The notes beneath the pieces are model-generated. The model had not been told where the DNA came from, did not search any database, and was given only the letters and a program-made list of their open reading frames with translations. A program made the translations under genes and the position numbers. This document shows, one piece after another, positions 19,543 to 28,676 of a stretch of DNA of 33,888 nt. The first letter of the stretch is position 1. Every line of letters begins with the position of its first letter. The stretch comes from Acidimicrobiales bacterium (GTDB lineage: Bacteria; Actinomycetota; Acidimicrobiia; Acidimicrobiales; GCA-2861595): NCBI GenBank assembly GCA_030448025.1, contig JAUJNQ010000002.1, positions 57,564 to 91,451 on the forward strand, given 5' to 3'.

Positions 19543-19569
19543 TTAGCACTCTGCTTGTTCGAGTGCTAA
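19543..19569 (-). promoter_or_regulatory. CIRCE element (HrcA operator) of groEL
   Basis: TTAGCACTC, nine bases, GAGTGCTAA: both nine-base arms match the CIRCE consensus exactly. It lies 30 bases before the groEL start and just downstream of the -10 box, where bound HrcA would block transcription. In the transcript it also forms a 5' hairpin. Confidence 0.97.
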
Positions 19570-19622: not shown

Positions 19623-19898
19623 CTACCCCCCGGCTACGGCGGGGACGATCGAGATGGTCTGGCCCTCCTGCACGACCGTGTCCAGACCCTGTTGGAAGCG
19701 AACGTCCTCGTCGGCCACGAAGACGTTCACGAATCGCCGCAGCCCGCCGGACTCGTCGAAGATTCGCTCTCCCACGCCGGGGTGGGCGGCGTCGAGGGCC
19801 TTCAACGCCTCGCCCACGGTGGCCGCTTCGACGGAGATCTGACCCTCGCCGCCCGTGAGATTGCGGAGCTGCGTGGGGACACGGACGGAGACGCTCAT
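19623..19898 (-). CDS. cysO: CysO-like ubiquitin-fold sulfur carrier protein
   Basis: The 91-residue protein has a beta-grasp fold and the terminal AVAGG, whose last glycine becomes a thiocarboxylate after activation by a MoeB-type enzyme. VRVPTQLRNLTGGEG, ERIFDESGGLRRFVNVFVAD, EDVRFQQGLDTVVQEG and ISIVPAVAGG follow Mycobacterium CysO closely from memory, more than MoaD or ThiS. CysO supplies sulfur to CysM for cysteine synthesis; here the partner gene encodes a different fold-II PLP enzyme. The ATG (19898) overlaps the stop of that gene as ATGA, so the two are made together. Since a SAM-I riboswitch heads the transcript, a role in homocysteine synthesis should be considered. Confidence 0.9.
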   Translation of the reverse strand: MSVSVRVPTQLRNLTGGEGQISVEAATVGEALKALDAAHPGVGERIFDESGGLRRFVNVFVADEDVRFQQGLDTVVQEGQTISIVPAVAGG

Positions 19899-21193
19899 GA
19901 GTCGACCTCGGCGGCCTGGTTGAAGGCCTCGATGGTCGGAGCGATCGTGGCCGTGGGTCCCACGTGGGGGCTCACGGCATCGATGGTCTTTAGCCCGAGC
20001 CCGGTGATGTACGCCACCACGCGCTCGTCGGCTCGAACCACGCCCTGCCGCGCCAGGTTGGCCAACGTGGCGATGGTCACCCCACCCGCGGTCTCGGCGA
20101 AGATCCCCTCCGTCCGGGCCAGCAGGCGGATTCCCTCCACGATCTCGTCGTCGGTTACCGAACCCACGGCCCCGCCGGTGGAGCGCACCACGTCGAGGGC
20201 GTACCAACCGTCGGCGGGGTTGCCGATGGCGAGGGACTTGGCGATGGTCCGCGGCTTCTGCGGCCTCACGTGGTCGGTGCCCTCGGCGAACGCAGTGGCA
20301 ACCGGGGAGCAACCGGTGGCCTGAGCGCCGGAGATCCGCACCTGTGGCTCCTCGGCGAGCAAGCCGACCCGGTGAAGCTCGGCAAAGCCCTTCTGTACCT
20401 TGACGAGCTGGCTGCCCGACGCGACGGGCACCACCACGTGGTCGGGCACCTCCCAGCCGAGCTGCTCGGCCACCTCGTAGGCCAACGTCTTGGAGCCCTC
20501 GGAGTAGTAGGGGCGCACGTTGACGTTCACGAAGGCCCAGGTGGGGTGGTCGGCGGTGAGCTCCGAACACAGGCGATTGACGTCGTCATAGGTGCCGTCG
20601 ACGGCGATGAGCTTGCCGCCGTAGACGGCGGTGGTGACCACCTTGGCCGGCTCGAGGTCGTGGGGGATGAAGACGACCGAGTCCATCCCCGCCCGTGCGG
20701 CATGGGCGGCGACGGAGTTGGCCAGGTTGCCCGTGGACGCACAGGCGGCCAGCTTGAAGCCCAGCTCCCTGGCCCTCGTGAGGGCCACCGATACCACGCG
20801 GTCCTTGAACGAGCCGGTGGGGTTGAGGGTGTCGTTCTTCAGCCACAGCTCGCCGAGGCCGAGCTCCGAGGCCAGGCGGTCGGCGCGGACCAGCGGCGTG
20901 AACCCGGCACCGAGGTCGACGGGGGCCCCCGGCGCGCTCGCCCCCCCGGACGAAGTCACCGCCCCGGGCGAGCCGGCGGGAAGGAGATCCGCGTAGCGCC
21001 AGATCGTGGGAGGGCCGGCGGCGATCTTCTCCCTGCTGATGGCGGCCGTGATGGCCTCGTAGTCATAGTCGACCTCGAGGGGACCGAAGCAGAACTCGCA
21101 GACGTGCAATGCCTCGGCCGGGTACCCACGGCCGCACTCCCGGCAGCGAAGGCCGATGATGTGCGGGCCCGCGGGGGCTGATGTGGGCGACAA
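19895..21193 (-). CDS. thrC: Threonine-synthase-family PLP enzyme (ThrC-like; possibly a MetM-type homocysteine synthase)
   Basis: The 432-residue enzyme has an N-terminal zinc ribbon (C17/C20/C32/C35), the PLP-lysine motif NDTLNPTGSFKDR (Lys130), ASTGNLANSVAAHAARAG and NVRPYYSEGSKTLAYEVAEQ, and ends with AETAGGVTIATLANLARQG and ITGLGLKTIDAV. Family members act on O-phosphohomoserine. This subtype (RPYYSEGSKT, zinc ribbon, adjacent sulfur carrier) differs from the ThrC of hom-thrC-thrB operons, which has NPYRIEGQKT. I recall a Streptomyces report that such a pair (MetM with carrier MetO) makes homocysteine; this needs checking. A SAM-I riboswitch upstream supports that reading. The start is TTG 21193, with GAGGAGG 4 bases before it. 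Neither hom nor thrB is nearby. An 11-residue Ser/Gly/Ala-rich stretch (about 80-91) is odd. Confidence 0.85.
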   Translation of the reverse strand: MSPTSAPAGPHIIGLRCRECGRGYPAEALHVCEFCFGPLEVDYDYEAITAAISREKIAAGPPTIWRYADLLPAGSPGAVTSSGGASAPGAPVDLGAGFTPLVRADRLASELGLGELWLKNDTLNPTGSFKDRVVSVALTRARELGFKLAACASTGNLANSVAAHAARAGMDSVVFIPHDLEPAKVVTTAVYGGKLIAVDGTYDDVNRLCSELTADHPTWAFVNVNVRPYYSEGSKTLAYEVAEQLGWEVPDHVVVPVASGSQLVKVQKGFAELHRVGLLAEEPQVRISGAQATGCSPVATAFAEGTDHVRPQKPRTIAKSLAIGNPADGWYALDVVRSTGGAVGSVTDDEIVEGIRLLARTEGIFAETAGGVTIATLANLARQGVVRADERVVAYITGLGLKTIDAVSPHVGPTATIAPTIEAFNQAAEVDS

Positions 21194-21201
21194 CGTTCCT
21201 C

Positions 21202-21319
21202 CTCATCGCTCCGGGCATTGGCACCTGGTTGCGCCCCGATGCCGCCGTAAGGAGGCTCCTCGTGGTGAACTGGTTGCCGCGGAATCGTCGGGCCCGGACC
21301 CTCAACCGCTCTGGATAAG
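21202..21319 (-). ncRNA. SAM-I (S-box) riboswitch in the leader of the threonine-synthase-like gene
   Basis: The minus strand carries the S-box landmarks in order. P1 is CTTATC (21319-21314) pairing with GATGAG (21207-21202). P2 is GCGG pairing with CCGC. Between them lies TTGAGGGTCCGGGCCCGA, matching the consensus GAGGG-N3-GGCCCGA. GGCAACC follows at 21278-21272. GGTGCCAATGCCC (21225-21213) matches the GGUGC-x-AAUUCC block, and GGCA/TGCC can close P4. The P1 3' strand runs straight into the GAGGAGG ribosome site of the TTG start, so SAM binding would most simply block translation. No terminator stem follows. The family assignment is by eye; a covariance-model scan was not possible. Confidence 0.85.
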
Positions 21320-21337
21320 TGCCCTCATCGTACCTCC

Positions 21338-28602: not shown

Positions 28603-28676
28603 GCCCGAGTAGCTCAGACTGGCAGAGCAGGCGCCTTGTAAGCGTCAGGTCGCCGGTTCGAATCCGGCCTCGGGCT
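28603..28676 (+). tRNA. tRNA-Thr (anticodon TGT)
   Basis: The cloverleaf is complete: acceptor GCCCGAG/CTCGGGC, D-arm GCTC/GAGC, anticodon stem GGCGC/GCGTC with loop CTTGTAA (anticodon TGT, reading ACA), variable loop AGGTC, and T-arm GCCGG-TTCGAAT-CCGGC. The discriminator is T and CCA is not encoded. It lies between DUF3263 (divergent) and nadA (convergent). Confidence 0.95.

Follow-up and report, generated by a model that had tools for sequence, protein, structure and literature searches.

Homocysteine, the precursor of methionine, can be made by a recently described route in which the enzyme MetM reportedly uses O-phospho-L-homoserine and a thiocarboxylated sulfur carrier, MetO. Classical SAM-I riboswitches possess a P4 helix, and with it a four-way junction, as a typical but peripheral element. 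In one described SAM-I mechanism the ribosome-binding site is built directly into the 3' side of P1 (PMC2258182), and the related SAM-IV class is without P4 and has P5, a pseudoknot PK-1 and PK-2 (PMC6890682). MetM was identified as a homocysteine synthase in Streptomyces, and metO as the sulfur-carrier gene, by Hasebe et al. (2024) according to PMC12172450; the same paper mentions a SAM riboswitch upstream of metM in S. albulus and, for a Microcystis homolog, threonine synthase and deaminase activity together with its authors' doubts that it has full MetM function. Here we describe a window of 33,888 nucleotides (the whole stretch of DNA analysed) from an Acidimicrobiales bacterium. As reported for S. 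albulus, a SAM riboswitch here stands before a ThrC-like gene, and a gene for a GG-ending sulfur carrier comes after it; the window belongs to another class of Actinomycetota. The pairing of a PLP enzyme with a sulfur carrier also recalls CysM/CysO/Mec of Mycobacterium tuberculosis, a cluster present in this genome too, but that system makes cysteine, whereas the PLP enzyme of the window is ThrC-like and apparently SAM-controlled. We consider it highly probable that the locus is a SAM-I translational OFF switch governing a metM-metO operon that makes homocysteine.

A cmscan search of the window against all of Rfam 15 returned SAM-I (RF00162) on the minus strand with 53.8 bits (window-wide E 6.9e-10), above the 44.4-bit gathering threshold, spanning the full model (1-108) and outscoring the other members of its clan; our own model, R1, gives the leader 90.2 bits. 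A whole-genome search found this SAM-I copy and no other in the 2.7 Mb. The sole other Rfam match in the window is a tRNA gene at 28603-28676, apparently Thr, with a UGU anticodon read by eye. The first-pass annotation had placed a SAM-I element at 21202-21319; its class and locus are borne out, with the limits moved to 21200-21321. The landmarks it listed (GAGGG...GGCCCGA, GGCAACC and GGTGCCAAT) are all there, although GAGGG and GGCCCGA lie four bases apart and not three, and its P1 and P2 pairings are those of Table 1. The GGCA/TGCC helix that it called P4 is P3 in SAM-I nomenclature, the real P4 being absent, and it had passed over the pseudoknot, the k-turn G-A pairs visible in the RF00162 alignment, the metO gene and the identity of metM.

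Table 1. Features of the metM-metO locus, in window coordinates
Feature	Position	Strand	Basis or remark
SAM-I (S-box) aptamer without P4	21200-21321	-	RF00162, model R1, pair counts
P1	21321-21314/21207-21200	-	about 6 good pairs; CTTATC/GATGAG
P2a	21309-21306/21282-21279	-	P2 pairing GCGG/CCGC
P2b	21301-21299/21292-21290	-	
Pseudoknot	21296-21293/21215-21212	-	CGGG (P2 loop) with CCCG (after P3)
P3	21278-21272/21225-21220	-	GGCA/TGCC
Shine-Dalgarno GAGGAGG	21198-21204	-	overlaps P1 3' strand; read from sequence
metM-like gene, 432 aa, PLP enzyme of threonine-synthase family	19895-21193	-	PALP 3.9e-75; TIGR00260
metO-like gene for a ThiS/MoaD sulfur carrier (91 aa, C-terminus PAVAGG)	19623-19898	-	PF02597 2.3e-15

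The leader travels with its gene. Scanning genome contigs with the downstream protein yielded 80 related loci, which with few exceptions bear the label Acidimicrobiia or Actinomycetota; Rfam places SAM-I directly upstream in 17 of the 17 tested, and a leader model built from 17 of the loci and the window (18 leaders, the remaining loci being independent of the model) detects the element directly before metM in 80/80 as well as in Nonomuraea. Among whole genomes of relatives, every one of 39 close metM copies has SAM-I upstream. Across the 18 metM leaders 91% of cells are paired and seven pairs have changed on both sides, with a covariation score reached by 0 of 500 shuffles; among 13 leaders drawn more widely, from before various target genes, 11 pairs are doubly changed, the pseudoknot included. 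Compensatory changes, which the first-pass annotation had proposed looking for in orthologous leaders, were found in P1, P2a, P2b, P3 and, in the wider set, the P2-loop pseudoknot. A chance match is contradicted by these covarying pairs and by the recurrence of the element before the same gene. Single-sequence thermodynamic folding of the window leader did not recover the SAM-I fold and did no better than shuffles, a failure that is not unusual for pseudoknotted aptamers. The positions that we take to be SAM contacts (U7, G11, C46, A47, A48, U99 and G100 in leader numbering) are unchanged across the 18 leaders. By sequence and covariation the metM leader is a SAM-I class aptamer, and it is predicted to bind SAM.

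The two genes are intimately joined, the stop codon of metM overlapping the start of metO (ATGA), and metO lies downstream of metM in 79/80 loci, the remaining locus being at a contig end. The metM-like protein has zinc-ribbon-like cysteines at its N-terminus. Nonomuraea MetM is 53.7% identical to it, and the order there (SAM-I, metM, metO, groEL) is that of the window, which suggests an old actinobacterial arrangement; groEL lies downstream within the retrieved stretch in 62/80 related loci. In the window a CIRCE-like inverted repeat, TTAGCACTC-N9-GAGTGCTAA, is found at 19543-19569, between metO and groEL. Three distant metM-metO pairs (L148, L149 and L150; 45-47% identical) keep the same gene order and have neither SAM-I nor any other Rfam riboswitch. 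Among 80 MetO carriers (79 loci and Nonomuraea), 19, those of L041, L045, L047 and L058 included, extend past the C-terminal GG by one or two residues and would need trimming; this suggests proteolytic maturation of MetO, perhaps by a JAMM protease. The genome encodes such a protease as the mec of its cysM-cysO-mec cluster, along with a MoeZ-like E1 with rhodanese.

The genome appears to lack the classical homocysteine synthases. The Cys_Met_Meta_PP family, to which MetB, MetY, MetZ and MetC belong, has no member above cut-off in the genome (14 of 14 control genomes are positive), and HcyBio, of the aspartate-semialdehyde route, has no match, for which reason that route was ruled out as the homocysteine source. 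MetX is represented in the genome by an 18.8-bit fragment, a result to be read beside the fact that no control genome passed the cut-off of the MetX model either, and a homoserine-kinase-like gene, with 167.7 bits, misses its cut-off by half a bit. As the genome is 98% complete, the absences could reflect a gap. A literature search on HcyS/HcyD yielded nothing useful, returning mainly clinical work on homocysteine.

A survey of 79 genomes, the window's own and its order-level relatives, bears on the same question: 38 have a close metM, in 39 copies, and 15 of the 16 genomes without a strong MetB/MetY-family match are among them (Fisher p 3.5e-5, phylogeny ignored). A MetB/MetY-family enzyme is also present in 23 of the 38 metM genomes. 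Where a close metM is wanting, SAM-I stands directly before metY in G006 and a weak, sub-threshold SAM-I match precedes metX in G046 (the L126/L133 pair of loci), so that different homocysteine-route genes are found under the same kind of switch.

The most durable of the alternatives is that metM does encode a second, genuine threonine synthase or a bifunctional enzyme, with SAM balancing the threonine and methionine branches. MetM does score 286.4 bits with the threonine synthase model TIGR00260 (cut-off 167.1), and a Microcystis homolog has threonine synthase activity according to PMC12172450. But metO-linked homologs pass that cut-off too, so the model cannot separate MetM from ThrC. The genome, moreover, has a separate ThrC, 39% identical to MetM, beside hom (homoserine dehydrogenase) on contig C12, and in the tree the metO-linked clade (100/99) stands apart from the ThrC clade (100/100), a topology that carries long-branch warnings. 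With metO overlapping the end of metM, no other homocysteine synthase detectable and no obvious logic in SAM repressing threonine synthesis, we regard a second threonine synthase as improbable. A sulfur carrier next door, a hom-thrC locus elsewhere in the genome and the lack of detectable classical homocysteine synthases together suggest that the genes are metM and metO, and the suspicion of the first-pass annotation that the threonine synthase label was wrong is well supported.

On this identification, metM-metO most likely make homocysteine by the recently described route. By analogy we infer the following chemistry for this organism, including any part played by the JAMM protease: MetO would be thiocarboxylated at its C-terminal GG by the MoeZ-type E1; MetM, a paralog of threonine synthase, would bind O-phosphohomoserine and accept the sulfur donated by MetO to give homocysteine; and homocysteine would be converted to methionine and thence to SAM, closing a feedback loop upon the leader.

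The geometry of the leader indicates how that loop may act. The start codon of metM, a TTG at 21193, lies 6 nt past the aptamer, too little space for a terminator to fit, and in 80/81 leaders an SD-like motif lies within or beside the 3' strand of P1. For want of space, and because the minus strand yielded no terminator, transcription termination was discarded as a platform, and a promoter scan gave no match. Control of metM is predicted to be translational, as the first-pass annotation had also thought, and its direction, we infer, is OFF: when abundant, SAM would bind the P1/P3 core and stabilise P1, and as the Shine-Dalgarno is in the 3' strand of that helix, both metM and metO, which overlaps it, would be translated less. 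It might instead be that MetM and MetO are rightly named and that the switch works by another platform or in the other direction, transcriptional or ON, since MFE folding of the window leader gives other structures, among them one with an anti-SD in the P3 loop. This loop pairing is not conserved (5 of 83 loops, with 4.2 expected), the 6 nt leave no room for a terminator, and SAM-I switches that hold the Shine-Dalgarno inside P1 have been described (PMC2258182), all of which renders this second alternative very unlikely.

In its architecture the leader differs from classical SAM-I riboswitches. P4 is absent in 81/81 leaders, in which 7-8 nt separate GGTGCCAAT from the 3' strand of P1, whereas in Nonomuraea the alignment of the leader that stands before these genes runs through P4. 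With SAM-I (RF00162) the window leader shares P1, P2a, the k-turn, P2b, the P2-loop pseudoknot, P3 and the core motifs, and with the known direct-translation members a ribosome-binding site in the 3' strand of P1; it and its relatives differ in being without P4. With SAM-IV it shares the core of the SAM clan, the lack of P4 and the pseudoknot PK-1, but its k-turn G-A pairs are of SAM-I type and RF00162 scores best. A P5 or a PK-2 partner is excluded because the start codon follows P1 by 6 nt, and the pairing of the P3 loop with the Shine-Dalgarno, taken from the MFE fold as a candidate SAM-IV-like PK-2, was rejected on the counts given above. Owing to the missing P4 we place the leader in the SAM-I/SAM-IV clan as a P4-less form, with SAM-I as its nearest class; an incomplete literature search found no description of P4-less SAM-I aptamers. 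We suggest, tentatively and with some doubt, that Acidimicrobiia use a distinct P4-less SAM-I/SAM-IV subclass, with a SAM-I k-turn and pseudoknot, a three-way core and the ribosome-binding site directly in P1, adopted also by genes outside known methionine metabolism. That the leader is a variant sensing some other ligand, such as SAH or homocysteine, might be argued from the absence of P4 in all Acidimicrobiia leaders and from similar leaders before unrelated genes, but with the presumed SAM-contact positions invariant in 18 metM leaders, methionine genes as targets and RF00162 the best of its clan, it is the least probable reading of all.

Such similar leaders, P4-less and SAM-I-like, occur at ten loci in the genomes of relatives (L127-L132 and L134-L137), where the ORF that follows is in most cases unrelated and not a methionine gene (unknown, GNAT, LRV-like). 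They are mostly 75-82% identical to one another, over about 85-120 nt only, and in those of L135 and L137 a C replaces a core A. A simple attC search revealed no integron pattern around them. One relative with an orphan SAM-I leader also has an Rfam match to PYLIS_3 (mttB) at L162:910-1009 on the minus strand, a possible pyrrolysine or mttB locus.

In the light of the published Streptomyces MetM/MetO and the SAM riboswitch reported for S. albulus metM, the window is a further case of a regulatory and metabolic unit already known, here with a P4-less aptamer. It illustrates that a riboswitch can correct the annotation of an enzyme: many 'threonine synthases' with SAM-I before them and a ThiS/MoaD gene after them are probably homocysteine synthases. 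Furthermore, a conserved minimal SAM aptamer offers a system for probing the function of P4. Finally, the MetM/MetO route would be extended to the Acidimicrobiia, where it often appears to be the only route to methionine.
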